This document shows positions 1 to 24,600 of a stretch of 44,434 bases of DNA, in pieces. The translations under genes and the position numbers were made by a program. The stretch covers positions 1 to 44,434 of the forward strand of contig NZ_CAJZCE010000017.1 in the NCBI RefSeq assembly GCF_914768025.1, read 5' to 3'. How positions within the stretch are numbered: the first letter of the stretch is position 1; the number at the start of each line of letters is the position of its first letter. The stretch comes from Snodgrassella gandavensis (GTDB lineage: Bacteria > Pseudomonadota > Gammaproteobacteria > Burkholderiales > Neisseriaceae). The notes under the pieces were generated by a model, which was not told the DNA's origin, ran no database searches, and worked only from the letters and a program-made list of their open reading frames with translations.

Positions 1-82
1 CATCCCGAACAGGACCGTGAAACGACCTAGCGCCGATGATAGTATGGATACCCATGTGAAAGTAGGACACCGCCAGACGCCC
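1..82 (+). rRNA. rrf: 5S ribosomal RNA, 3' part
   Basis: The first ~82 bases match the 3' two thirds of a proteobacterial 5S rRNA, including the conserved CGCCGATGATAGT stretch and the 3' strand ending CGCCAGAC. The 5' end lies outside the window. It is the last gene of an rRNA operon transcribed on the + strand and is followed 8 nt later by a strong terminator. The exact 3' end is estimated to within a few bases. Confidence 0.93.
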
Positions 83-90
83 CATAAGAG

Positions 91-128
91 AAGAACCCGG
101 TTGAGAGATCAACTGGGTTCTTTGCTTT
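91..128 (+). terminator. Intrinsic terminator of the rRNA operon
   Basis: A 14-bp uninterrupted stem (91-104 with 109-122, one G-T wobble) closes a GAGA tetraloop and runs into TTTGCTTTG. It directly follows the 5S 3' end, so it most likely ends the rrn transcript. Confidence 0.9.
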
Positions 129-166
129 GTATGGATACCCATGTGAAAGTAGGACATCGTCAAACA
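129..166 (+). repeat. Truncated second copy of the 5S rRNA 3' tail
   Basis: Bases 129-166 repeat bases 42-79 of the 5S gene with 28 identical bases followed by three transitions in the last ten. The copy starts inside the T-tract of the first terminator, so it lacks the 5' half of a 5S gene and cannot fold as one. It is best read as the scar of an unequal exchange between 5S genes or rrn operons. Confidence 0.85.
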
Positions 167-173
167 ACCATTT

Positions 174-205
174 AGAGCTCCGGACGGTTATGGATCGGAG
201 CTTTT
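174..205 (+). terminator. Second terminator-like hairpin after the 5S tail copy
   Basis: AGCTCCG (176-182) pairs with CGGAGCT (196-202), extendable by an A-T and a G-T pair, and is followed by TTTTAC. It sits after the duplicated 5S tail just as the first terminator sits after the real 5S, so it may have travelled with it from another rrn copy. The 13-nt loop and short T-run make it weaker than the first. Confidence 0.6.
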
Positions 206-698
206 ACTTTGGGTGGCGTGTCTGTTTAGGTCAGATATGTGACACTTATACAAGATTATTTATAGACTCAAATTTCCGAATTTTTGCATTAAATGAAAAG
301 AATCACAGTTGATATTTAAACACTCTGTATTACATGTGTTTTAATTAGAAATTCGGGAATTATCCTTTTTAAATAAAAATATAATTTTAATAGATGGTAA
401 TAATATGTTGTTTTATATCAATAGGCGGAGTTAACAATATTATTAAAATTTTTTAGATGCTAAAAGAGGTTGTTTTTTTAAGTGTTGGCAATTTTTGATT
501 GTGACAGAAATAGAAAAGATAATTGAGCCTGAAATTATTAAGATTGTTTTTTGCTTGTATTCGAGAGTAGTGATATATAATATCACTAGATAAATCAACA
601 TTAATTCAGGTCATTACATCCTTTGAATTGCGGCAATAAACTATAAATATTAATAAATATTTGCATTTATAAACCAAAAAATCAAAAAGGAGATAGCA
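206..698. other. AT-rich intergenic region before the nuclease gene
   Basis: About 490 bases, clearly more AT-rich than the core genes to the right. I see no credible gene. It holds one notable element, the 21-bp palindrome at 568-588 described separately, and the ribosome binding site of the nuclease gene near 686-693. Confidence 0.6.
568..588. promoter_or_regulatory. Perfect palindrome over a -10-like TATAAT, candidate operator
   Basis: TAGTGATAT (568-576), a 3-nt centre ATA, then ATATCACTA (580-588) form a perfect 9+3+9 inverted repeat. A consensus -10 hexamer TATAAT (576-581) lies across its centre, though no good -35 at 17 nt is visible. The site is ~110 nt upstream of the nuclease TTG start. 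A dimeric repressor bound here would block the -10 box. This is inferred from position only; no regulator gene lies next to it. Confidence 0.4.
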
Positions 699-1904
699 TT
701 GAGCATTCAAAAATTATTAGATGATGTTACGTTATGGCGTGAAAGTTATAAAAAGGCTAATGCATTATTTGACCGCCAACTTGCGCCTGCTTTTCGTTTA
801 TTGAATCTATTTTGTATCAATGAAATGGCATTATCCAATTGCTTAGCATTTTTATTGGATAAAAATGAAACACATGGTCAACAAGACTTATTTATTAACA
901 AGTTTTATGAGTTATTTTCTTCACAAAAAAACATACAGCTTGAGTCAAAATATCAGGTTGTTACTGAATATAAAATTCCTACAGGACAGCGGATTGATAT
1001 TCTCCTCACAGATCATATAAATTATATTGCAATTGAAAATAAACCATGGGCATGTGATCAAAAAGATCAATTAAAAGATTATGGCACGTGGCTACATGGA
1101 GAAGCAAAAAATGATAAAAATTGGCTATTGATCTATTTATGTAATAGAGAGATTAACGAATATACTTTGTCTGAAGATACCGATGAGTCTATTTGCGATA
1201 ATGTATTACACATCACTTTTTATGAATTACGCAATTGGTTAATTGATTGTGCTTTATATGTTCAAGCACCTAAAGTAAGATTATTTGTTGAGGATTTAAT
1301 TCAATATATTCAAGAAAACGTAAATGGAGAAATCAATATGAAACAACAAGATGAGTTAGTTAAAATGATTCTTTCAAATTCTAACAACCTTAATTCAGCA
1401 CTTCTTATTGCAAATAATATTGAAGTAGTAAAAAAGGAATTATTTGATAAATTTATTAAAAACTTACGAGACCAAACAGCCAATTTAGGTATGGTAGGTA
1501 TCAAAATTGAAGGAGATACTGAAATTGAAAAACGTTATGCAGGTTTTCAAATAAAGTTTGATCCAAATGATTATTTTGTTTTGCGTTGGGAATCTCAAGG
1601 TACAATGCAAAGAGATATAATTTATGGGATTCGTCGAAAAGATGCTACTGTTCAGCCTAACAAAAAACTATACAAACATATTGCAGAGCAAATGGAAGGT
1701 ATCCTTTCATCACCACAATCAAATGAATTGTGGTGGCCTGCTTGGGATTCACCCGAAAAAAATGCCATGCCAAAATTCATAGAAGACGAAACATGGATAA
1801 GTTTTTCCAATCCTCAGGAGAGTACTTTTACTAAGTCGGTCATTGAAATAATTCGTCAAGTGTATGAAAAACAAACATTGCGGGCATTACTTAAAGAGCG
1901 TTGA
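699..1904 (+). CDS. PD-(D/E)XK nuclease superfamily protein
   Basis: A 401-aa protein with the catalytic core of the PD-(D/E)XK fold. D100 stands in a hydrophobic strand (RIDILL), E113-N-K115 forms the (D/E)xK motif, and Q124-L-K-D-Y128 matches the QxxxY motif seen in many nucleases of this superfamily. It most resembles the PDDEXK_4 group, which includes stand-alone proteins often found in accessory or defence regions. The start is TTG, supported by an AAGGAGA ribosome binding site six bases upstream. No methylase, helicase or restriction partner is adjacent, and its neighbours are an rRNA operon and a dead insertion sequence. The gene is AT-rich compared with core genes, which suggests acquisition. 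DNA cleavage is likely from the motif; the biological target is unknown. Confidence 0.8.
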   Translation: MSIQKLLDDVTLWRESYKKANALFDRQLAPAFRLLNLFCINEMALSNCLAFLLDKNETHGQQDLFINKFYELFSSQKNIQLESKYQVVTEYKIPTGQRIDILLTDHINYIAIENKPWACDQKDQLKDYGTWLHGEAKNDKNWLLIYLCNREINEYTLSEDTDESICDNVLHITFYELRNWLIDCALYVQAPKVRLFVEDLIQYIQENVNGEINMKQQDELVKMILSNSNNLNSALLIANNIEVVKKELFDKFIKNLRDQTANLGMVGIKIEGDTEIEKRYAGFQIKFDPNDYFVLRWESQGTMQRDIIYGIRRKDATVQPNKKLYKHIAEQMEGILSSPQSNELWWPAWDSPEKNAMPKFIEDETWISFSNPQESTFTKSVIEIIRQVYEKQTLRALLKER

Positions 1905-2046
1905 GGCAATTAACATGCATAATAGTATGATTAATACGTATTGTTATTTAATTTAAATCAACAACCATACCGCAATAGAAATCTTTATATTAAAGGTTTC
2001 TATGACGTACTTACTGATACTATTATTGGCAATGACTATATTTTTA

Positions 2047-2904
2047 TGCAGATGTTGGCTAAGCTAAGCTTACAATCCCAGCTTTAGAAGGAAATCATAT
2101 AAAAGCTATAGTGCCTACCAAGGCAGGTAACGTTTGGGCTATGCAACTACGAGAAAGTCATTGTGTGACGATTACCATGAGCTGCGCTATTGTTGGCTTA
2201 AGTCGCTGTGCTGACTATTATCAATCTAAATTACCGGATGATTCGGTGATTGTGTCGGTACTCAGTGCTATCACTGACAGGCATTTACGTTGGGGGCTTT
2301 CCCAAGTGTTTTAATCGCATCAGCATGCTCTGTTATAAATGAAATCATAAACGTGTTTATCGGGTGTATTGTCAATTAAAGCTTAATCTTAGGGTAACGC
2401 GTAAAAAATGCATTCCACCACAAAGCCCAGAAAATTATCAGTACCGAATAAACAAGGTGAATGCTGGTCAATGGATTTTATGGAGGACAGCAGTCGCAAT
2501 CAACGCAGGTTTAGAACTTTTAATGTGATAGATGACTTTAATCGTGAGGTGTTAGGCATTGATATCGCGGTCAGTTTGCCGGCTGGCAGGATTACCCGTT
2601 ATCTGGATAAACTGGCTAAATATCATGGTTATCCACTAAAAATACGAGTGGATAATGAACCGGAATTTACCGGAAATACGTTCACTTACTGGGCAAAATC
2701 ACATGGTATAACTACAGAAGAGTACATCAACCCCAGCAGCTCATATCAAAATGGCTATATTAAACGATTTAATCGTTGGTATCGTACTGAGGTACTGGAT
2801 TTATATCTTTTCAATAATCCGCACAAGCAAGGAACGTAACCGAAGAATGGCTAACCATTTATAACGATAAACGACCCCATGAAACATTGAATAATATAAT
2901 GTAA
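2047..2904 (+). pseudogene. Degraded IS3-family transposase remnant (orfA end plus orfB)
   Basis: Three frames together recover most of an IS3-family transposase. Bases 2047-2105 read like the end of orfA but contain three stops. Bases 2111-2314 give the start of orfB (helix-turn-helix region, residues like VGLSR). Bases 2408-2839 give 143 residues of the rve integrase core, and after another frameshift 2846-2904 gives the usual C-terminal YNDKRPHETL motif. In the core, D23 (WSMDF) and D82 (VDN) are the first two catalytic acids, but the third, expected as Glu in the NGYIxRFN motif, is Lys119. Multiple frameshifts and the lost catalytic Glu show it is inactive. No clear terminal inverted repeats were found. 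Confidence 0.88.
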
Positions 2905-3488
2905 ATTGAATATAAACCTTAAAACAAGCAGTATAATTTTCTACTTGGTTTGTTTACTAAGTCTAGAGTATTTGCAAAGCTATACTACAAAAATCCAGTA
3001 TTGATGCTCCTTTAATTTTGTTATATGGAAACAGTTAAAACCATGACATTTTGTTTCATTTAGTCAGAAATTTCACTGTGTTTGCTATGAACAGTCATAA
3101 ACATGGTTTAAGTGAGAAAACCGGTGTTTATGATTACCATGTAATGTCTGCTAAGACTTATATCCTGATTCAGGCTTTGATGCTTAAGCTTGTAACTATA
3201 TATTGCGTTTAGTGATGGGAGCAGTTGTGCCCTTATTATTGGGTTTGTTTGAGCAGTTTGTGGTAGTAAAAAAATCATTGCTTAATTTGAAATTAAAAAT
3301 CTTTCTGACCCCTGAGTATAGTAGTTATATTATCAATCATGATTTGTTATATTCTGATTTTGTAGCTTGTTTGGCGAAAAATGTAAAGAATCGGCTTTTG
3401 AACTTGTATAGAAATAGCTGCAAAGATATCTTTACTGTCATGTAGTTAAAGCTAATGCTTTATTTTATCCACTATTTTTATAGTAATT
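2905..3488. other. Intergenic region, no convincing gene
   Basis: An AT-rich stretch between the dead insertion sequence and the end of the lipid operon. An 80-codon open frame (3203-3445, +) has a hydrophobic start but no recognisable family and no good ribosome binding site; I do not count it as a gene. An imperfect inverted repeat (TCATAAACA at 3095-3103 with TGTTTATGA at 3125-3133) is present and may be remnant mobile-element DNA. Confidence 0.5.
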
Positions 3489-3896
3489 TTATTTGAAAAG
3501 TAAAGCAATAACCCAGATTAACCATAATATGGCGCAGCTAGCCAAGGCGTATTTGAGTTGCTTTATTGCGCCCTCATACCTTTGCTGCAAGGAAAAGTAT
3601 TGCAGTTTTTCTTTTTGCCAGATAAAAGCAAGAATAATACCCGCCTGCTGATTATTTTTTGGTGTAAGTTCAGAGAAATAATGGTTGTCCAGCCACAGGC
3701 GCCAGCACTGATAGATAACAATGCCAGCGTTTCCTGTAATCAGTACATGTATGAAACCAACAGGCGCGTTGAAGATTACCCATAATAATGGCACTAAAGC
3801 CATCAGCAGCAAAAAGCGCCAGCTGGCTAGTGTTTGTCTGATTAACTGTCTGTTCAGGTAAGGATCAGCGGGTTCTGGGCTATTCTGGTTTGCCAT
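3489..3896 (-). CDS. Small inner-membrane protein at the end of the Ynb-like operon
   Basis: A 135-aa protein of unknown family with three predicted membrane segments (about residues 27-48, 50-68 and 113-134) separated by a charged cytoplasmic stretch. Its start lies inside the 3' end of the upstream phosphatase gene, overlapping it by 43 nt in another frame, so translation is probably coupled. There is no obvious ribosome binding site of its own. Position at the end of a lipid-modifying operon suggests an accessory membrane role, for example subunit or flippase-like partner, but nothing in the sequence proves this. Confidence 0.7.
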   Translation of the reverse strand: MANQNSPEPADPYLNRQLIRQTLASWRFLLLMALVPLLWVIFNAPVGFIHVLITGNAGIVIYQCWRLWLDNHYFSELTPKNNQQAGIILAFIWQKEKLQYFSLQQRYEGAIKQLKYALASCAILWLIWVIALLFK

Positions 3897-5158
3897 TGTC
3901 GAAGTAATTCCATATGTTGGGTGCTAAGCACAATTTGCGGGCGTTGTCGCTGCACAAAGGAATATGCCTGCTCTACGGTTTTGAAATGGTCAAAAGCCAG
4001 TAGCCAGGCAATAACCACAACTGCACTGCGCGATAGTCCCAATGCACAATGTACCAGTACGCTACTGTTTTGTAGGCGTAATTTTTCTAGCTCAATTACT
4101 GCTTGCTGTAATTGAAGCATGGTGGGGCAAACCAAATCAAGCATGGGCATACAGCTGTAGACACAATTGCGGGTTGGATATGCGCGCGAAAATTCGAAAG
4201 TTAAATCAAGCACAGCTCGTTGATATATTGTGCTGCATGGGTAACTACCCAAAAAAATATGTCGTCTGATTGGACTGACAGCAGGAATTTTACGCGTGTA
4301 TAACCAGCGGGAAATGCTCATTATGTAACGCCATGGTAACAGTAAGCAATAGGCTGCGGCGGTATATTTACCCTGCTGTGATTTATATACCAGACCAACA
4401 CCAAAACGATAAGCAAAACTTACGATAAATAAAGCAAGTGTAAGCCATAATAACCAAGATGTTAACCACAGACTAAGACATGCACACAATAAAGCTGCCA
4501 AACCATAGTATCTTGCCAGCTTTATCGATTGTGCAGATTTTCTATGTAAATGTGATAATTTATTGGGTGGTATCAACCAGTCGATAAACATGCCGATAGC
4601 TATACCGGTAATAACATCAATAAAGTGGTGTTGCCATGTAGTTAGTACGGAAATGGCAATTAGCAGAAACCAGCCATGGATCAGCCAATGATAGCGTTTG
4701 GCAGTATGTCGCAGAAAATGTTGCCACAATAGCCAGCTCAGGATGATGTGTAGTGATGGTGATTGGTTATAAGGTAAGTCAAATTGTTCCAGTTGGCTAA
4801 ACCACCATCCGGCAAAACCTTCTACTTTCGGCCGGGTAAAGCTAAAACGGAGTGGAAACAGCAAAAAGCCAATGCAGGCAAAGGTAGATGCTAACAATAG
4901 CCGGCAAGCCAGACGCTTCTGTTCGGATAAGGAGCGGCAAATAAATAATGATATACCGTAGAGAAAATCTAGACTCCAGTAAGGAATAATGGTTAGGGGT
5001 ATAAAAGGAATGTATTGTTCCCAGTTAAAAACGATGCTATTTATATTAATACGTGTGGCAGTAAACTGGTTTATTTGACCATAGGTCAGGAAGAAATAGG
5101 GGCCAAGAAGGCATAACCAACCTACTGCCTGCAAATTTATTTTACTGCGTAGATTCAT
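3854..5158 (-). CDS. ynbD: PAP2-like / dual-specificity phosphatase fusion, YnbD-like
   Basis: A 434-aa membrane protein with two phosphatase modules. Residues 1-200 form a polytopic PAP2-like domain with PSLH (134-137) and a later HH-F-I-D (177-181), matching the second and third PAP2 phosphatase motifs. After a further membrane pair, the C-terminal ~140 residues are a cytoplasmic dual-specificity phosphatase with the P-loop HCALGLSRS (catalytic C371, R377) and a probable general acid D341. Length and architecture match E. coli YnbD (about 430 aa). The start overlaps the ynbC-like stop by 4 nt (ATGA). Family knowledge: some DSP-type enzymes (PTPMT1) dephosphorylate phosphatidylglycerol phosphate, and PAP2 enzymes act on lipid phosphates, so a lipid-phosphate substrate is plausible. 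The real substrate is not known. Confidence 0.87.
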   Translation of the reverse strand: MNLRSKINLQAVGWLCLLGPYFFLTYGQINQFTATRININSIVFNWEQYIPFIPLTIIPYWSLDFLYGISLFICRSLSEQKRLACRLLLASTFACIGFLLFPLRFSFTRPKVEGFAGWWFSQLEQFDLPYNQSPSLHIILSWLLWQHFLRHTAKRYHWLIHGWFLLIAISVLTTWQHHFIDVITGIAIGMFIDWLIPPNKLSHLHRKSAQSIKLARYYGLAALLCACLSLWLTSWLLWLTLALFIVSFAYRFGVGLVYKSQQGKYTAAAYCLLLPWRYIMSISRWLYTRKIPAVSPIRRHIFLGSYPCSTIYQRAVLDLTFEFSRAYPTRNCVYSCMPMLDLVCPTMLQLQQAVIELEKLRLQNSSVLVHCALGLSRSAVVVIAWLLAFDHFKTVEQAYSFVQRQRPQIVLSTQHMELLRQWQTRIAQNPLILT

Positions 5159-6915
5159 GATGCACGGCGTATTGCTATAGAAACGCTAAAGATGCCCCAT
5201 TCATCGATAATTTGTGTGCATTTATCGAAGCCGGCTGCGTTTACTAATGCATCCATTTCACCCTGAGAGCGATTGCGCATAATCCATGGTTGACCTTCAC
5301 GATGGCTGGTGAGTGACCATGCAATGGTTTTCAGTTGTGGATGCCATGGCTGGTTGGTATATATCAAGATACCGCCAACAGGAATAGCGGCGGCTAAACC
5401 GTTCAGTGAGGTGCGTAATAGGCTATTGTCTGGAAAAAGTTCGTATAGGCCGGAAACGATACCCAGTGTTGGTTTGGGCGAGAGTGAAGCCAATTGTTGC
5501 TGATTGAATGCATCGCCGATTTCAAATCGTGCTTTAGCGCTTAAACCGTAGGCAGCTATCATCTGCTGTCCTTTGTTGACATTGATTTCGCTGTAATCGC
5601 GCAACAGGATTTGTTCAACGGTATCAATACTGGATAATGCTTCAATCACGTATCGGCCATGGCCAGCAGCAATGTCAACTACGCGAACAGGCATTTTTTG
5701 TGCTTGTAATTTAGATACCGCCTGCTTAATCATGTATTCCAGATTGATTTTGCGCTGCCGGATACCTCGCCAGCCAATACTGTTCAAATAGGCTTTATCA
5801 AACTGTTTTCCCAGCCAGTTTTTGCCTTGTGGTTGGTTTTGGTAGACATAATCCAATGTGCTGCCAGAATCAAAGCCTGTTTCACAACCCAGCTTAATGC
5901 CATTGGAAAGTGTACCAAGAGTACTCATGCCTTTATGCAAGGCACGATAAGCAAAGGCACTGGGTGAAAATGGCACAGGGCCGCCGCTTAGTTGGCGCCA
6001 GTTATCTGCACTTGGGCTCCAGCGATCTTCATGTTGGTAGTTAAAGTTGGGAGCCGGTTGCTGGTACAGGGTATCGACAAAGTTGTGAATTTTTGTGAAT
6101 GCTTCTTCGCGGTTAAGTTCACCCAATGTGTCGTGATAAAAACCAGGAAGAATGTGCATTTCTTTCAGTGGATTGCGAATACGTTGATAGAAATCCAGTT
6201 GTGGCTGTCGATGCACAACGTAATCCTGACCGGAGATCAGCAATTGGGTAGGTAACGTAATGGCTGCGGCATCTTCAATAATGCGATCAGCTGTACGGTA
6301 CAAATCCAGCAGGATATTGACTGCAATGGCGCGGGTAATCAGTGGGTCGCTATTAAAACTGTTAATGCGTTGCGTATCATGAGTTAGGTACTTGCCTTTG
6401 ACGTATGAATTAACGAAAAACAGACCTTTGAAATGTTGACCAATTGCTAATAGGGGACGGGCAAATGGAACATATAATTTTACTTTGAAAGCCGGAGAGG
6501 CCAGTACCAGCCCGCGAATTTGCGGTGCGTAATCGTGCGCCCAAGTTGCTGCCAGTACTGCACCCACACTCTGAGCAATAACGATAATATTGGCAAGAGG
6601 TGTCTGGCTATCAGCGGCAACAAATTGCACAAAATCATCTACGTCCTGTACTGAGCGTGCCAGTGACGGACTGTAGCCACGACGGCCGGGTGAGCGTCCA
6701 TGGCCACGGGCATCCCACGCATAAAAGTCTGTATCTGGCATGTTCAGCTCATCAACAATGTGTTGTAAGCGGCCAGAATGTTCATGCCCGCGGTGAAACA
6801 GGACAATAACTTTGCGTATTGTGCCGGTGGTGATGGCAGGCCAGTGGCGATAAAATAATTCTTGTTTATCGCTGGTATGAAAAATACTTTCTTTTGCTTG
6901 GCGTTGTTCAGTCAT
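5155..6915 (-). CDS. ynbC: Alpha/beta hydrolase-methyltransferase fusion, YnbC-like
   Basis: A 586-aa two-domain protein. Residues ~15-285 are an alpha/beta hydrolase of the serine aminopeptidase/monoacylglycerol lipase type: an HRGHEHSGR oxyanion region (41-49), nucleophile elbow AQSVG with S116, candidate acid D231 and candidate base H261. Residues ~340-586 carry a SAM-dependent methyltransferase fold with motif I VVDIAAGHGR (412-421). E. coli YnbC has the same length and layout. The elbow begins with Ala rather than the more usual Gly. The gene overlaps the acyltransferase stop by 8 nt and the ynbD-like start by 4 nt. Hydrolysis of an acyl ester and methylation of the product or headgroup are plausible from the domains; neither activity has been assigned. 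Confidence 0.88.
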   Translation of the reverse strand: MTEQRQAKESIFHTSDKQELFYRHWPAITTGTIRKVIVLFHRGHEHSGRLQHIVDELNMPDTDFYAWDARGHGRSPGRRGYSPSLARSVQDVDDFVQFVAADSQTPLANIIVIAQSVGAVLAATWAHDYAPQIRGLVLASPAFKVKLYVPFARPLLAIGQHFKGLFFVNSYVKGKYLTHDTQRINSFNSDPLITRAIAVNILLDLYRTADRIIEDAAAITLPTQLLISGQDYVVHRQPQLDFYQRIRNPLKEMHILPGFYHDTLGELNREEAFTKIHNFVDTLYQQPAPNFNYQHEDRWSPSADNWRQLSGGPVPFSPSAFAYRALHKGMSTLGTLSNGIKLGCETGFDSGSTLDYVYQNQPQGKNWLGKQFDKAYLNSIGWRGIRQRKINLEYMIKQAVSKLQAQKMPVRVVDIAAGHGRYVIEALSSIDTVEQILLRDYSEINVNKGQQMIAAYGLSAKARFEIGDAFNQQQLASLSPKPTLGIVSGLYELFPDNSLLRTSLNGLAAAIPVGGILIYTNQPWHPQLKTIAWSLTSHREGQPWIMRNRSQGEMDALVNAAGFDKCTQIIDEWGIFSVSIAIRRAS

Positions 6916-7552
6916 TGGAGTCTCTTTTTGTATATTGCGGACGCAATGCTAGTAAATTGTTTAATAGTTTAGCCTTGAATTGTTCTTTGTCGGGGTGGTA
7001 ATACATGGGGCAGCCAATGTTGACATCGATAAACAGGGGCAAAGGGATGCGATTGCCTTTGGCCATTATCTGTTCAGTGCCTTGGAGCCACACTGGAATA
7101 ATCGGTACATTGGGCATGGCGGCACTTAGATACCATAAGCCTGATTTTAATGGCTGCATTTTCCCGGGCTCACCACGTGAACCTTCGGGAAAAAGAATAA
7201 GAATTTTATTTTTGCGTAAGGCGTCTTCGCAGCCTTGCAGGGGATTGCCCTGACCACTATTCTGCCGGGTCACTGGAATAATATTCAGGATGTTGAGTGC
7301 AAACCAGGCCATCCATTTATTACTGAGAAAGTAATCAGCCGCCGCCGCAGGATGAATGTGGCGTTGTTGTAAGGGTGAATAGAGTGACATCAACGCAAAA
7401 ACGTCCATATGACTATTGTGGTTGGCAACAATGATGGCAGGACCCCGTTTGGGCAAGTTGTGGTGTTGGTGAATACGTAAACCCATCCATAAACGCATAA
7501 CCGGCCATACTATGCATAAGGCAAAAATTGGTTTGAGTAATGATTTCAGCAT
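6908..7552 (-). CDS. 1-acyl-glycerol-3-phosphate acyltransferase-like protein (PlsC family)
   Basis: A 214-aa LPLAT-superfamily acyltransferase with an N-terminal hydrophobic segment, the catalytic NHNSHMD motif (H45, D50) and the phosphate-binding FPEGSRG motif (121-127). Family members transfer an acyl chain to lysophosphatidic acid or related lysolipids at the inner membrane. It is inserted between the ynbB-like and ynbC-like genes, separated from the first by 3 nt and overlapping the second by 8 nt, so it is part of the same operon. As I recall it, the E. coli ynbABCD operon has no gene here, so this looks like an extension. It may supply or remodel acyl chains for the lipid made by this operon. 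A housekeeping plsC role cannot be excluded. Confidence 0.85.
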   Translation of the reverse strand: MLKSLLKPIFALCIVWPVMRLWMGLRIHQHHNLPKRGPAIIVANHNSHMDVFALMSLYSPLQQRHIHPAAAADYFLSNKWMAWFALNILNIIPVTRQNSGQGNPLQGCEDALRKNKILILFPEGSRGEPGKMQPLKSGLWYLSAAMPNVPIIPVWLQGTEQIMAKGNRIPLPLFIDVNIGCPMYYHPDKEQFKAKLLNNLLALRPQYTKRDSND

Positions 7553-7555
7553 GGT

Positions 7556-8470
7556 TTAGTAATAGAAATAACGAATAAAGTGAAAAAATACGGGGGCGGT
7601 AAAAATCAGCGAATCCAGACGGTCGAGAATGCCTCCATGTCCGGGTAACAGTGTCCCGCTGTCTTTAATCCCGATATCCCGCTTGATTGCAGACATGACG
7701 ATATCGCCACAGAAACCGCTTACGCTGATTAGCAGGCCGGCCAGTAAGGCCATACCCCAGTTGAGCGAGGTGAGTAGCGGGCCTAATAGCATGGCAGCAA
7801 TGGTGGTGCTGCCAATTCCACCGAGTAAGCCGGCCAGTGTTTTATTGGGACTGACTTTGGGGGTGATTTTAATTCTGCCCAGAGATTTGCCCCACAGATA
7901 TTGGGTAATATCGTTGAATTCGGTTAAACCCACCAGAAAAAGTACCAGCAGTGCACCAGTTTGTTGATTATCGTTGGGTAGTACTAAGAGAAAAGCAACA
8001 TGGCTAAAAGTAAATACAGTGGTCATCAGACCCCATTGTAGCTGGGAGACAGTGCGCAGAAAGTGTCTGGTATCTCCGGCAATCACCATGCGTGCTGGTA
8101 AGAACAGGAACATATAGACGGGAATGAATACGATAAACAGCCCATACCAGTCGATTCCGATTAACCAGTAATTAATCGGAATGGTGATAAACATCCATAA
8201 AATGGGCATCCGGTCGGCATGGCGGGCAGGTACCAGTGTTAAATATTCTTTTAAGGCCATGAAGCTGACCAGCGCAAAAAAACTTAATCCGAGCCAGTGT
8301 GGGCTAATCAGTGCCAGAGAAAACAGGATGATAATAATCCACCACGTGCGAATGCGTAATGTTAGTTCGTGCCAGTCTTTATTCGGTTTCAGACACACCA
8401 GCAATCCATTAATAACTGTTGCCAGCAATAACAGGCTGAAGATAACCAGTAAGGACTTTTGCAGCAGCAT
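7556..8470 (-). CDS. ynbB: CDP-diglyceride synthetase paralogue, YnbB-like
   Basis: A 304-aa polytopic membrane protein with the full CdsA signature near its C-terminus (260-286): SAIKRD, then KDSG, LLPGHGG and DRLD. CdsA enzymes make CDP-diacylglycerol from phosphatidic acid and CTP. Length fits E. coli YnbB (about 298 aa), which has been described as a CdsA paralogue. The ATG lies 1 nt after the stop of the ynbA-like gene. In this operon it would provide CDP-activated lipid for the neighbouring CDP-alcohol phosphatidyltransferase. Whether it replaces or supplements the housekeeping cdsA depends on finding another copy elsewhere in the genome. Confidence 0.88.
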   Translation of the reverse strand: MLLQKSLLVIFSLLLLATVINGLLVCLKPNKDWHELTLRIRTWWIIIILFSLALISPHWLGLSFFALVSFMALKEYLTLVPARHADRMPILWMFITIPINYWLIGIDWYGLFIVFIPVYMFLFLPARMVIAGDTRHFLRTVSQLQWGLMTTVFTFSHVAFLLVLPNDNQQTGALLVLFLVGLTEFNDITQYLWGKSLGRIKITPKVSPNKTLAGLLGGIGSTTIAAMLLGPLLTSLNWGMALLAGLLISVSGFCGDIVMSAIKRDIGIKDSGTLLPGHGGILDRLDSLIFTAPVFFHFIRYFYY

Positions 8471-8471
8471 A

Positions 8472-9071
8472 TTAGTGGCCTCCGGTTAAGGCACTACGGC
8501 AGCGGTTAATGCAAGTCCATAGCAGTAAGATGATGGACGCACACCACAACAGATTATTCCATGAGGTTAATTCAGGCCAGATGGCCAGCAGTAATGACCA
8601 TGTGCCAAAAATCAGGGCACGGTCACTTTTACCCATTGGGCCGGCATAGCTGCGAATCCCGTTAATTGTTTGGGCGAGAATGCCGCAAAATTCGGTGAGC
8701 ACAGCGCAAAACAGCATAATCAGTACTACTGTAGTATTGCTGCCCAGTAACAGGATAAAGGGTAAATACAGGGCGACATCAGATAATACGTCGCCCAGCT
8801 CATTTAAAACTGCACCAAGCCGGCTTTGTTGGTTGCATTCGCGTGCCAGCATACCATCCAGCGCATTGAGTGCCATGCGAATAAACAGGGTAATGGGTAA
8901 CAGCCAGAATAGCCCGGGATGGGGGAAAATGGTCAGTATGACACCAATAATAACTGAAAGGGCCATAGCGGCAAGGGTTACGTGATTGGCGGTAATGCCC
9001 CTTTTGTATAGCCAGAACATAAGTGGACGTAGTAGTTTTTGAAAAGCCGGTTTGATTTTGTAGAGAGTCAT
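8472..9071 (-). CDS. ynbA: CDP-alcohol phosphatidyltransferase-like protein, YnbA-like
   Basis: A 199-aa membrane protein, first gene of the operon. It has the CDP-alcohol phosphatidyltransferase motif in variant form: in the usual D-x2-DG-x2-AR-x8-G-x3-D-x3-D, the first Asp is N69 and the third is N90, while D72, G73, A76, R77, G86 and D94 are kept. Normal family members join a CDP-activated lipid to glycerol phosphate, inositol phosphate or similar alcohols. Loss of two acidic metal-binding positions may alter metal use or substrate; a related pattern may be shared by YnbA proteins. Length fits E. coli YnbA (about 201 aa). A start 10 nt further upstream is in another frame and is not supported. 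Confidence 0.86.
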   Translation of the reverse strand: MTLYKIKPAFQKLLRPLMFWLYKRGITANHVTLAAMALSVIIGVILTIFPHPGLFWLLPITLFIRMALNALDGMLARECNQQSRLGAVLNELGDVLSDVALYLPFILLLGSNTTVVLIMLFCAVLTEFCGILAQTINGIRSYAGPMGKSDRALIFGTWSLLLAIWPELTSWNNLLWCASIILLLWTCINRCRSALTGGH

Positions 9072-9101: not shown

Positions 9102-9107
9102 ATTATA
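9102..9107 (-). promoter_or_regulatory. Candidate -10 box of the Ynb-like operon
   Basis: On the minus strand the hexamer TATAAT lies about 31 nt before the ynbA-like ATG. No good TTGACA-like box is seen 16-18 nt upstream, so an activator or a different -35 would be needed. Confidence 0.3.
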
Positions 9108-9129
9108 AAATGTATTTAATATTGTTGTT

Positions 9130-9288
9130 ATGTTATTTTTATTAAAGATATTTTGCTTTGGAACGATTTGTCTGGTGATGCTGCTAATCGGTGATAATAA
9201 ATTTATATTATTTTGTAGCGGGTATTTATTTTTGGTATCTATCGGGCTGGTAGTTGTGAGGCTGATATGGTCTTTAAGCTTTTACTGA
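9130..9288 (+). CDS. Possible 52-aa membrane protein
   Basis: A clean ATG-to-TGA frame of 52 codons predicting two hydrophobic segments (about residues 1-21 and 25-47) split by GDNK. It is followed 5 nt later by a strong hairpin with a T-run on this strand, as expected for a real gene end. There is no clear ribosome binding site, and I recognise no family. It lies between two minus-strand genes, so it could equally be chance hydrophobic coding in AT-rich DNA. Confidence 0.35.
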   Translation: MLFLLKIFCFGTICLVMLLIGDNKFILFCSGYLFLVSIGLVVVRLIWSLSFY

Positions 9289-9293
9289 TATAT

Positions 9294-9332
9294 AAACTGC
9301 CGGTAATACAAGATAATATTACCGGCAGTTTT
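9294..9332. terminator. 15-bp stem terminator, probably bidirectional
   Basis: AAACTGCCGGTAATA (9294-9308) pairs perfectly with 9317-9331 around an 8-nt loop. On the + strand it ends in TTTT and closes the possible 52-aa gene; on the minus strand it is 27 nt past the metQ-like stop, with a weaker T-run. Confidence 0.8.
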
Positions 9333-9357: not shown

Positions 9358-10191
9358 TTATTCTCCCTGTGGCATTACCCACATCTGGTTTTGATTGTAT
9401 TGCTGCATAAATTGTTTGAATTCTGGCGACTGATAGGCTGCTTTCAGGTCTTTTGCCCATTGCGTGTCTTTGTTTTTTTCATTGATGGTAACCACCATTT
9501 CCATTTCCGGAACCACTTTTTCGCGTAATACAGCTTTTTTCGGATCCAGTTTCGACTGATAAGCAATGCCGCCGGAGGCAAAACCAAAATCTACTTCATT
9601 CAGTGTGCGCGGAATCATTACGGAATCAATTTCCTTGATTTTTAGCTGTTTGGGATTGCTGGCAATATCTCTGGTGGTAGCCAGTATTGGATTAGTATTG
9701 GGTTTTAGCTGGATTAGATGGTTGTCGGTGAGGATGTGTAGCGCACGGGAAGTATTGGCCGGGTCGCTCGGAATCAGCACGCTGGCGCCATTGGGGGCTT
9801 GCTGGATGGAAGTGTATTTATCTGAATAAATGGCAGCTGGAACTGTAGGAATATGTACCAGCGGATACAGGTGTGTGGCTTTTTCATGGTTAAAAACGTT
9901 AAGGTAAGCGGTGTGCTGATCAAGGTTAAAATCAACTTGCCCATTATTAACTGATTGATTATTCACTTCCAGCGTGGAAAAATTCAGGGTTTTGATTGTA
10001 TAGCCCTGTTTTTCCAGAATGGGTTTGATACCTTGTTCAAAGACAGTGCTATAGGGCATGGCAGAAGCACCAAAAACCAGTTCTTTTTTTGTGGTTGGGG
10101 TAGTGGGTGCTGTGTCCTGCTGGGTTTTGGAGCAGGCAATCAGGCCTGTTGCCACTAAACAGGATAAAACAAGATAGATAATTTTGTTCAT
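9358..10191 (-). CDS. metQ: MetQ/NlpA-family ABC transporter substrate-binding lipoprotein
   Basis: A 277-aa secreted lipoprotein: hydrophobic signal ending in the lipobox L-I-A-C (C20), then a NlpA/MetQ periplasmic-binding fold. Diagnostic stretches include VFGASAMPYSTVFEQ, the QVDFNLDQHTAYL region and IPSDPANTSRAL. Family members bind D/L-methionine (some bind other amino acids or dipeptides) for MetNI import. No ABC ATPase (MetN) or permease (MetI) is adjacent, so it is either an orphan binding protein or serves a transporter encoded elsewhere. It is transcribed divergently from dinG and ends at the 15-bp hairpin. The methionine specificity is inferred from family membership. Confidence 0.88.
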   Translation of the reverse strand: MNKIIYLVLSCLVATGLIACSKTQQDTAPTTPTTKKELVFGASAMPYSTVFEQGIKPILEKQGYTIKTLNFSTLEVNNQSVNNGQVDFNLDQHTAYLNVFNHEKATHLYPLVHIPTVPAAIYSDKYTSIQQAPNGASVLIPSDPANTSRALHILTDNHLIQLKPNTNPILATTRDIASNPKQLKIKEIDSVMIPRTLNEVDFGFASGGIAYQSKLDPKKAVLREKVVPEMEMVVTINEKNKDTQWAKDLKAAYQSPEFKQFMQQYNQNQMWVMPQGE

Positions 10192-15652: not shown

Positions 15653-16531
15653 TTATGGGGCAGTTGGTGGTTTAGTATTACGGTGTTTATACCGATTGTA
15701 GCCAAATAGGTACTGGCTGGGAAAGCGTGCTACCCATTGTTCGACATTGTTGTTGATAATCTGGGCATCAAGTTCACGATTGCCATTGAGTGTACCTTCC
15801 AGCGGAGCGATATGCAGGGCAAAGCCGCGGCCGTGGGGCAGACGTTCGCCGCAAAAGAACAGGGCGGTTACTTTAGGCATGACGGCCAGACGTGAGGCCA
15901 GTGTCATGGTGTAGGCTGGTTGGCCAAAAAAAGTTGCCCATACGCCTTCACCTTCACCAGGTACCTGATCGGGTAAAACGATGGTGGCCTCTTTGTTTTT
16001 TAAGGCACGTACGATTTGTTTGACGCCCTGCATATTGGCCGGTGCGGTATAGCCGTTATCGCGGACGCGGCCATTATTCATTACGCTTTCGAGCCAGCTT
16101 ATTTTGGGTGGGCGATACATGGCGGTGAGAGGAAAGGGCAGTTTTTCGCTCAGGTAACGGCCGGCAAGGTCGTAATTGCCCAGATGCGGGGTAATGAGCA
16201 GCAGACCTTCGTTGCGAGCGAGGGCTTCTTCAATGTGTTCCCAGCCGTGCACTTCTTTAAATAGGGAGACAATGTGTTTGCTGGAGCGGGTCCATGCAAT
16301 GGATAGTTCTAGTCCGCTTTTAGCTGTTTCGGCGAAAACGGATTTAACCAGTTTCTCTGCTTGTTGGTCGTTGGCAGCAAGTTTGCTAAAATGTAGATTT
16401 CTAGTTGTGCGTTTACGTTCGTTGGTGGCAAAGTAATAGCCAAAACGCCCCAGTATTGAACCTATGCCTTGTAAAATTGGCAAGGGAATTAATGCCAACA
16501 AGGAAAATACGACATAAACCAGCTTTTGCAT
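15653..16531 (-). CDS. lpxL: Lipid A late acyltransferase (LpxL/HtrB family)
   Basis: A 292-aa inner-membrane acyltransferase with an N-terminal membrane anchor and the catalytic HxxxxD motif H116-LGNY-D121. Later conserved stretches (VLPDQVPGEGEG, WVARFPSQYLFGYNRYK) are typical of the LpxL/HtrB/LpxM family that adds secondary acyl chains to Kdo-lipid A. It is divergent from metK with ~100 nt between them, an arrangement also known in Neisseria. The window holds a second family member at 23710 with Glu in place of the motif's Asp, so the two probably act at different steps. Which acyl position each serves cannot be read from sequence. Confidence 0.9.
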   Translation of the reverse strand: MQKLVYVVFSLLALIPLPILQGIGSILGRFGYYFATNERKRTTRNLHFSKLAANDQQAEKLVKSVFAETAKSGLELSIAWTRSSKHIVSLFKEVHGWEHIEEALARNEGLLLITPHLGNYDLAGRYLSEKLPFPLTAMYRPPKISWLESVMNNGRVRDNGYTAPANMQGVKQIVRALKNKEATIVLPDQVPGEGEGVWATFFGQPAYTMTLASRLAVMPKVTALFFCGERLPHGRGFALHIAPLEGTLNGNRELDAQIINNNVEQWVARFPSQYLFGYNRYKHRNTKPPTAP

Positions 16532-23709: not shown

Positions 23710-24600
23710 ATGATGATGAAATTGGCGTTTGCTTTTTTATATGTGCTGCAATTACTGCCGTTGTGTATGATTCATGCACTGGCACGATGTGTGGGCTGGT
23801 TAAGTTATTATGCGGTAGCGCTGCGGCGGCGCATTGGCCTGATTAATTTGCGCCAATGTTTTCCCGAATGGACAGAACGGCAGCGGCGCAAGGTACTGCG
23901 TGAACATTTCTATCATATGTCCATGCTGTTACTGGAATATGGCCTATACTGGTATGGCGATGCCCGACGGTTGAAAAAGCTGGTGCGCTATCAGGACAAG
24001 CATTATCTGGATGATGCACTGGCTGCCGGTGAGAAAGTGATTTTACTCTATCCGCACTTTACTGCTTTTGAGGCGGCGGTGTATGCCCTCAATCAGGATG
24101 TTCCTCTGATTAGCGTCTATTCACACCAGAAAAACAAGCAGATGGATGAGCAAATTCTCAAAGGCCGCCAGCGTTATAACAATGCTTTTCTGATTGGACG
24201 TACGGAAGGGCTGCGTGCCATTATCAAGAAAATCAAAGCCAGCAGTGCGCCGTTTCTTTATCTGCCTGATCAGGATTTTGGCCGGCGTGAATCGATTTTT
24301 GTGAATTTTTTCGCTATTCCCACTGCTACGATTGCCGGTCTTAGCCGTATTGCAGCTTTAACTAAAGCTAAGGTTATTCCGGCAATTCCTACCCGTGAAG
24401 CGGATGGCAGTGTGACCTTGCGTTTTTATCCGCAGTGGGAAAATTTCCCCAGTAAAGACATCGTTGCCGATACCCAGCGCATGAATGATTTTATTGAGGC
24501 ACGGGTGCGCGAACAGCCGTCACAGTATTACTGGCTACATAAACGTTTCAAAACTCGCCCAGAGGGCGAGGCATCGTTTTATCAGAAAATTCACAAATAA
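23710..24600 (+). CDS. Second LpxL/LpxM-family lipid A acyltransferase
   Basis: A 296-aa LPLAT-family protein with an N-terminal membrane anchor and the motif H116-FTAF-E121, the HxxxxE form of the catalytic pair. The downstream LYLPDQDFGRRESIFVNFF and REQPSQYYWLHKRFK stretches are typical of late lipid A acyltransferases. Together with the HxxxxD protein at 15653 the window encodes two such enzymes, as expected for hexa-acylated lipid A in Neisseriaceae. Three ATG codons in a row start the gene; the first is kept for lack of a decisive ribosome binding site. It is monocistronic between the efflux operon and a minus-strand operon. Confidence 0.88.
   Translation: MMMKLAFAFLYVLQLLPLCMIHALARCVGWLSYYAVALRRRIGLINLRQCFPEWTERQRRKVLREHFYHMSMLLLEYGLYWYGDARRLKKLVRYQDKHYLDDALAAGEKVILLYPHFTAFEAAVYALNQDVPLISVYSHQKNKQMDEQILKGRQRYNNAFLIGRTEGLRAIIKKIKASSAPFLYLPDQDFGRRESIFVNFFAIPTATIAGLSRIAALTKAKVIPAIPTREADGSVTLRFYPQWENFPSKDIVADTQRMNDFIEARVREQPSQYYWLHKRFKTRPEGEASFYQKIHK

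Follow-up and report, generated by a model that had tools for sequence, protein, structure and literature searches.

A six-gene Arc1/Ynb-type phospholipid operon in Snodgrassella gandavensis, with probable enterobacterial origin and modular decay in the genus

A contig of Snodgrassella gandavensis (NZ_CAJZCE010000017.1; 44,434 nucleotides, analysed in full and called the window below) carries on its minus strand, at positions 3489-9071, six closely packed genes that we call A, B, P, C, D and S. The reading that we prefer, and to which we give a probability of about 0.6, is that they form an accessory phospholipid pathway of the Arc1/Ynb type that was acquired from an enterobacterium and whose product most likely shields the envelope when competitors inject toxins. 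The operon is a known kind of cluster, and the genes that seemed extra in it are standard members. The new points are its enterobacterial origin in this genus, its modular decay and the asparagine-substituted active site of protein A.

Results

Genes and layout of the operon

8472-9071, minus strand: A (YnbA/Arc1A type), CDP-alcohol phosphotransferase fold, 199 amino acids (aa); PF01066, 45 bits with a cut-off of 22
7556-8470, minus strand: B (YnbB type), CdsA paralogue, 304 aa; PF01148, 237 bits
6908-7552, minus strand: P, PlsC-type acyltransferase, 214 aa; PF01553, 82 bits, with NHNSHMD and FPEGSRG in the sequence
5155-6915, minus strand: C (YnbC type), fusion of an alpha/beta hydrolase (S33) and Methyltransf_20, 586 aa; PF12146, 229 bits, and PF12147, 465 bits
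3854-5158, minus strand: D (YnbD type), fusion of a PAP2 membrane phosphatase and a dual-specificity phosphatase (DSP), 434 aa; PF14378, 29 bits, and PF00782, 73 bits
3489-3896, minus strand: S, small helical membrane protein, 135 aa; conserved beside D

The open reading frames (ORFs) and Pfam matches bear out the six minus-strand genes of an earlier note on this DNA, and also their spacings (A/B 1, B/P 3, P/C -8, C/D -4 and D/S -43 nt). The overlaps, together with the synteny described below, suggest that the six genes form one operon. Among the B ORFs of the family, 74 of 75 contain SxxKRx4KDxGxx[LIFM]xxHGGxxxRxD, which we take to be a CdsA-type motif. D of the window has an intact P-loop, HCALGLSR, which matches the dual-specificity phosphatase pattern HCxxGxxR; the strict pattern was found in only 32 of the 89 D ORFs because many of them have CC or SC replacing HC, with CCALGYSR in Pseudomonas loci and CCALGLSR in some enterobacteria. 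The histidine before the catalytic cysteine is thus a cysteine in Pseudomonas (L084-L122; L and G numbers are our handles for loci and genomes) and several enterobacteria and a serine in some Cupriavidus; outside the Pseudomonas set the altered loop occurs in L053, L055-L058, L062 and L064, and the window and other enterobacteria keep the histidine.

For S, an alignment of 29 members has invariant R66, D70, R106 and G109, with the conserved patterns R-x3-D and R-x2-G, and no Pfam family scored over its cut-off (best T4SS_pilin, 17.2 bits with 26.6 required). Its AlphaFold model is confident (pLDDT 94) and had no match in PDB at E 0.001 or better in Foldseek. Chains of the diacylglycerol kinase DgkA were among the top rows (best E 1.5, TMq 0.38-0.44) and none reached E 0.001, and a diacylglycerol-kinase-like role for S was set aside. 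PADLOC gave one weak match, of the methyltransferase part of C to mad2/mads_2 (20.7 bits), which we do not count as evidence of a defence system.

Relation to ynbABCD and arc1

Escherichia coli K-12 ynbABCD has orthologous A, B, C and D in the same relative order, with 71, 60, 70 and 53% identity to the window proteins, and C of the window stands in one clade with that of E. coli in the tree of C proteins given below; unlike the window, K-12 is without P and S. The earlier proposal of a dedicated lipid operon related to ynbABCD is supported by these identities and by the paralogues of its genes elsewhere in the genome. The genome (2,507,157 bases in 45 contigs, completeness 100) contains, operon copies included, three PF01066, two PF01148 and four PF01553 genes and one PgpA gene; the second PF01148 copy lies at G000:C6. 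A search for separate cdsA, plsC and pgsA genes, which had been proposed as a check, thus found other members of all three families in the same genome. From size and sequence, the other two PF01066 proteins appear to be pgsA-like and pssA-like (our labels). Because of these paralogues the operon is to be seen as an extra, dedicated pathway and not as the housekeeping one.

The cluster with a published phenotype is PA2541-36 of Pseudomonas aeruginosa, named arc1A-F for antagonism resistance cluster 1 (Ting 2022, PMC8926400). According to the passages of that paper that deal with the cluster, arc1 has six genes, five of them for phospholipid metabolism and four like enzymes of phosphatidylglycerol synthesis, with orthologues of the core genes elsewhere in the P. 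aeruginosa genome; it is strongly induced by Gac/Rsm, needed by P. aeruginosa for surviving the type VI secretion system (T6SS) of Burkholderia thailandensis, and dispensable under heat, H2O2, salt and detergent stress. The screens with Tle3 and ColA each had one Arc1 gene over the threshold, although no single effector tested accounted for the defect of arc1 mutants. Literature searches for the cluster or its product brought up this paper as the one relevant primary source; the name Arc1 also occurs once in the text of a preprint (PMC11888443). The window operon fits the published description in its six genes, its five phospholipid enzymes and the core orthologues elsewhere, and is in our view probably orthologous to PA2541-36. 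In other Pseudomonas species the genes homologous to those of the window are ordered A-C-D-S-P-B, compared to A-B-P-C-D-S in the window, and from these loci together with gene annotation PA2541-36 would be A, C, D, S, P and B in order. When gene ends were compared to published primers, several Pseudomonas A proteins start with MIS, as implied for PA2541, and no listed B ends in ETP, our reading of the PA2536 primer.

Gene content across related loci

An alignment of 15 C proteins was used to scan genome contigs, giving at least 588 stretches and 566 relatives, of which the best 80 were kept as loci, a set biased to sequences like the window C. Gene content was assigned by hidden Markov model search (for S at E 1e-4 and at least 20 bits) in the 72 fully flanked loci, and the eight loci with short flanks were set aside. 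The window order A-B-P-C-D-S was found in 24/72, among them L051 and L083, whose ORFs are broken or split; the hosts are Serratia, Citrobacter, Superficieibacter, Mixta, Hafnia, Brenneria, Enterobacter, Yersinia, Pantoea and Mangrovibacter, and further two Budviciaceae, six Neisseriales and one unclassified metagenome-assembled genome (MAG). The order A-C-D-S-P-B accounted for 28/72 (22 Pseudomonas, five Cupriavidus/Burkholderiaceae and one deltaproteobacterial MAG), A-C-D-P-B for seven (five Pseudomonas, Denitromonas and Cupriavidus) and A-C-D-S for eight (Proteus, three Providencia, two Xenorhabdus, Morganella and one Enterobacter). Single loci had ABC (Escherichia whittamii), ABCD (Rahnella), APCD (L059, with broken ORFs), AC (Xenorhabdus) and CADSP (Variovorax L094, a score that results solely from an over-extended C ORF and from a B that is present but falls outside the distance rule).

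The two shared six-gene orders indicate that the grouping of the genes is not due to chance. The acyltransferase and the small membrane protein had been thought to be additions to a four-gene operon, but each of them was found in 61 of the 72 loci, the S matches being weak (<50 bits) in Pseudomonas-type loci, and both are in a plasmid-borne copy. As they are in most loci and missing in E. coli K-12, P and S are part of the usual set and K-12 ynbABCD is a reduced form. On whether the neighbours vary freely, a possibility raised against a single pathway, the answer is mixed: the content does vary, with A-B-P alone in five genomes of the genus and A-C-D-S in Proteus, Providencia, Xenorhabdus and Morganella, but it varies in blocks. 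Gene A is always kept, whereas B+P and C+D+S behave as two halves that can be separated. This would be simply explained if the housekeeping enzymes can substitute for the missing ones, PlsC for P, CdsA for B and phosphatases for D.

Two divergent forms of C were noted. L041 (167-1899, G029:C2), in a genome of the same family as the window, has C split into two overlapping frames and is probably frameshifted. L042 (628-2343, G041:C21) is a third, far-diverged C paralogue (37-38% identity) with methyltransferase motifs that look degenerate; genome G041 has two ordinary C copies besides it.

Origin and plasmid-borne copies

The tree of C was built with a quick method without bootstrap. Of the 101 C rows it uses 71, since 25 from Pseudomonas together with L035, L041, L117 and L120 were excluded by name and a further one by a length filter. 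In it the three copies of the genus are inside Enterobacterales (SH-aLRT 99 for a set of 17 rows and 96 for one of 27), and six other Neisseriaceae, with distant C proteins (50-55% identity), form a separate group (SH-aLRT 100). A tree of A, B and P, made with a careful method, has 52 rows, to which only loci with all three genes were admitted and from which 30 loci were excluded by name (25 Pseudomonas and L036, L051, L059, L083 and L120). It places the eight rows of the genus in one clade (100/99), which falls within Enterobacterales and joins Serratia oryzae (99/96). Both trees are explained by a single transfer to the common ancestor of the eight genomes, and the best explanation is that the ancestor of the genus acquired the operon from an enterobacterium near Serratia/Citrobacter. 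Vertical inheritance within Neisseriaceae is disfavoured by both trees. If the transfer predates the split of the species, the operon is not expected among group-specific genes.

A tblastn search with C of 72,556 plasmid records gave 30 records at E 1e-30, and three of those listed, with 4.8-4.9 Mb, look like chromosomes filed among plasmids. A plasmid of Citrobacter sp. TSA-1 (NZ_CP053574.1) has all six genes in the same order as the window, with C 71% identical, near a Tn3-family transposase and a recombinase, whereas the window copy is beside nlpA on a contig of 44 kb. On two E. coli plasmids, typed as conjugative, A-B-P-C is present and D is either truncated to a fragment or was not detected; a plasmid of Burkholderia ambifaria carries A-C-D-S together with divergent P and B. 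Megablast of the operon against 20,395 E. coli records gave no match.

Decay within the genus

Among 14 genomes of the genus, all six genes are present and open in three (G000, G006 and G009). In five (G002, G008, G010, G011 and G013) A-B-P is intact, C-D-S is missing from the stretch examined and PF12147 from the genome as a whole. Two have scraps, G001 with pieces of A and C and G004 with A interrupted by stops and the start of B. None of the six genes was found at the nlpA locus of G003 and G005, and neither there nor in G007 (60% complete) and G012 (no close nlpA) was there a match to A or C genome-wide. A search for remnants of C, which found none in a reversed-sequence control, detected them at E 6e-40 to 4e-4 in G001, G002, G008, G010 and G013, which indicates that C was lost in these genomes and not that it was never gained. 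As G002 groups with the full-operon G009 in the tree of A, B and P (99/85), its loss was separate from that in G008 and G013.

The pairwise ratio of nonsynonymous to synonymous substitutions (dN/dS, Nei-Gojobori) between G008 and G013 was 0.021 for A, 0.028 for B and 0.074 for P, with 0.024 for nlpA; these values are rough, with dS 0.10-0.13 and approximately 1, 3 and 4 nonsynonymous differences in A, B and P as estimated from pN. Such low values where C-D-S is gone point to purifying selection, with A-B-P kept as a working unit. In the pairs G000-G009 and G000-G006, the same ratio was 0.03-0.21 for A, B, P, C and D.

Active site and fold of protein A

The signature of CDP-alcohol phosphotransferases, D1xxD2GxxAR...GxxxD3xxxD4, has eight absolutely conserved residues, and its first three aspartates coordinate metal while D4 is the likely base, according to the relevant passages of PMC4634129. 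Protein A of the window has instead the motif NxxDGxxAR(x8)GxxxNxxxD and thus departs from the full signature. Asparagine at D1 and D3, with aspartate at D2 and D4 (N-D-N-D), is shared by 91 of 95 ORFs of the family. The remaining four ORFs (L059, L067, L117 and L120) are short, cut or misread; a looser pattern that allows other spacings gave NDND in 80 of 91, compared to 91/95 with fixed spacing. Across 36 aligned members N69, D72, N90 and D94 are invariant, and likewise E78, E91, R151 and R190. The two other PF01066 proteins of the window genome have four aspartates each. Since asparagine replaces two of the three metal-binding aspartates, the product of A is uncertain. The few literature searches bearing on the point found no mention of the asparagine change.

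The AlphaFold model of A (pLDDT 90) was matched best in Foldseek by phosphatidylinositol phosphate (PIP) synthase chains (TMq 0.71-0.80), followed by cholinephosphotransferases (0.67-0.70) and phosphatidylglycerol phosphate (PGP) synthase chains (0.51-0.57). The NCBIfam scores were 70.5 bits for archaetidylinositol phosphate synthase, 57.3 for PIP synthase (NF045883, curated cut-off 170) and 28.4 for pgsA, all below cut-off; the first two models are hit by each of the 36 aligned members and pgsA by 8/36. The PIP synthases (PDB 6h5a, 6wmv and 5d91) thus share the fold of A and differ from it at the two metal-site aspartates. Inositol-1-phosphate synthase (PF01658) had no match in the window genome (control positive in 6/14), and phosphatidylinositol made from the cell's own inositol phosphate is therefore unlikely. 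In the alignment with chain 6h53_A, R151 and R190 of A fall on its R155 and R195 (residue numbers counted by us). These are probably equivalent to R153 and R191 in the enzyme from Renibacterium, for which a role in binding the acceptor phosphate has been proposed (PMC4634129). The acceptor of A is thus likely to carry a phosphate, in line with the presence of the phosphatase D in the operon.

Flanking DNA

9358-10191, minus strand: NlpA/MetQ-type lipoprotein gene upstream of the operon, used as locus anchor; profile match
9294-9330, minus strand: inverted repeat CTGCCGGTAAT...ATTACCGGCAG with TTT after it, perhaps the terminator of nlpA; found by eye
9102-9131, minus strand: promoter-like ATAACA-18-TATAAT, 30 nt before the start codon of A; 10/12 consensus matches

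Genes of the nlpA type gave 4-5 matches in 12 of the 13 genomes of the genus searched and one match in G012. The inverted repeat, which is not among the sites listed by a computed scan, would possibly part nlpA from the operon. Promoter-like sites numbered 11, compared to a mean of 14.2 in shuffles, and the count is not significant.

Downstream of the operon the window has an integrase-core fragment (2408-2839, plus strand; PF00665) of an IS3-type element, and the only match of positions 1-3450 to plasmids was one of 45 bases, to an IS3 transposase on a Legionella plasmid. Positions 699-1904 (plus strand) encode a protein of the PD-(D/E)XK nuclease superfamily (PF14281, 71.8 bits) in DNA of low GC content (31-32%), a region that is also found in G009 and G003 with 93-96% DNA identity. 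Judged by eye, the translations of 15653-16531 (minus strand) and 23710-24600 (plus strand) look like lipid A acyltransferases of the LpxL/HtrB type.

Discussion

It is most likely that the operon provides extra synthesis of a phospholipid whose phosphorylated headgroup is dephosphorylated by D and which protects the envelope; the enzymatic steps, the headgroup and the role in this host are what we infer. In such a pathway P would acylate lysophosphatidic acid, B would convert the phosphatidic acid to CDP-diacylglycerol, and A would transfer the phosphatidyl group to a small phosphorylated alcohol, from which the PAP2-DSP protein D would strip the headgroup phosphate. C, with its lysophospholipase-like hydrolase and its methyltransferase, and S may then remodel or place the product. 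The lipid would be made on top of the housekeeping lipids and would guard the envelope against toxins of competing bacteria.

A special case of this explanation is a parallel pathway to phosphatidylglycerol, in which A uses glycerol-3-phosphate, D dephosphorylates the product, and ordinary phosphatidylglycerol is made on demand. The likening of four arc1 genes to phosphatidylglycerol-synthesis enzymes (PMC8926400) and the lack of a match to inositol-1-phosphate synthase in the genome are in favor of it, and the sister genomes that keep A-B-P without D would be workable if a housekeeping phosphatase such as PgpA takes over. However, NCBIfam bits, the number of members matched and Foldseek TMq all put A closer to PIP synthases than to PGP synthase, and we consider this variant possible, at clearly less than even odds. 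An unlikely alternative is a unit for the repair of lysophospholipids, where lysolipids that injected phospholipases leave behind are reacylated by P and hydrolysed by C, and what remains is recycled by A, B and D. P is annotated as lysophospholipid acyltransferase in three plasmid records and has phospholipid O-acyltransferase as its best NCBIfam match, below cut-off, and C has an S33-type hydrolase (22.8 bits to lysophospholipase L2, far below cut-off); in addition, one Arc1 gene counted in the Tle3 screen of P. aeruginosa. In contrast, A is the gene that stays constant, whereas some lineages have lost P and others C, and the passages on arc1 in PMC8926400 report that no single B. thailandensis effector mutation tested relieved the arc1 defect and that the phospholipase Tle3 is countered mainly by Arc3.

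The distribution within the genus could also mean that the operon is a relic under weak selection, on its way out and without a present role. It is complete in only three of the 14 genomes, with scraps or absence in six others, and insertion-sequence DNA, resembling window 2044-2978, adjoins the operon scars in G003, G010 and G011. Nevertheless, all six genes are open in the three complete copies, and the dN/dS values are low, in A-B-P even where C-D-S is gone, and we consider a relic unlikely. That the operon could be the housekeeping phospholipid pathway of the genome, as its enzyme classes match the core pathway, is refuted for practical purposes by the two other PF01066, one other PF01148 and three other PF01553 genes and the PgpA gene, and by the absence or decay of the operon in several near-complete genomes of the genus.

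Several observations weigh against an acquired, protective Arc1/Ynb pathway as preferred here. In the tree of C a MAG from Neisseriaceae (G036/L065, 65% identity) is beside Enterobacterales (SH-aLRT 88, on a long branch of 0.68), so that the enterobacterial type of C is not confined to the genus. Without two of the eight signature residues, transfer by A on CDP-diacylglycerol is not assured. Eleven of the 13 sister genomes, two of them 60% and 86% complete, are without the whole operon or without C-D-S, and it is thus dispensable there. Loss of arc1 also raised the survival of B. thailandensis modestly (PMC8926400), which suggests that its role in P. aeruginosa is not purely defensive. The P. 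aeruginosa proteins are likened to those of the window by description, as a pattern from the published primers for the PA genes was found in 0 of 298 genomes. Gac/Rsm control is reported for arc1, whereas no match to CsrA/RsmA (PF02599) was found in the whole window genome and GGA is absent from the 286-nt leader of the operon, so that control of the arc1 type is not expected here and RsmA control of the operon has no support; the arc clusters are described as extending beyond Gac/Rsm regulation (PMC8926400). Finally, a role in defence against T6SS would hold for this host by analogy. In favor of such a role, the T6SS sheath gene TssC (PF05943) is present in 12 of the 14 genomes of the genus, the window genome included, and T6SS conflict in bee guts, of relevance as the genus is Snodgrassella, has been documented (PMC5727410, PMC8125069).

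A bolder and rather unlikely idea, which we put forward tentatively, is that A, YnbA and Arc1A are a class of CDP-alcohol phosphotransferases of their own, with two asparagines and with the proposed base and the likely phosphate-binding arginines kept, whose product is a phospholipid with some headgroup other than glycerol or inositol, and that this lipid is what shields cells with Arc1/Ynb operons from injected toxins. If this is true, the three-gene A-B-P form of the sister species would be the minimal lipid-making core.

The poorly understood ynbABCD of E. coli is here tied to a type of cluster with a published phenotype, the six-gene form of which is common among related loci and also plasmid-borne. 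Since some lineages have just A-B-P, others just A-C-D-S and others the full six genes, nature provides a dissection of the pathway, and the change from aspartate to asparagine in A turns the question of which lipid the Arc1/Ynb operons make into a biochemical one.

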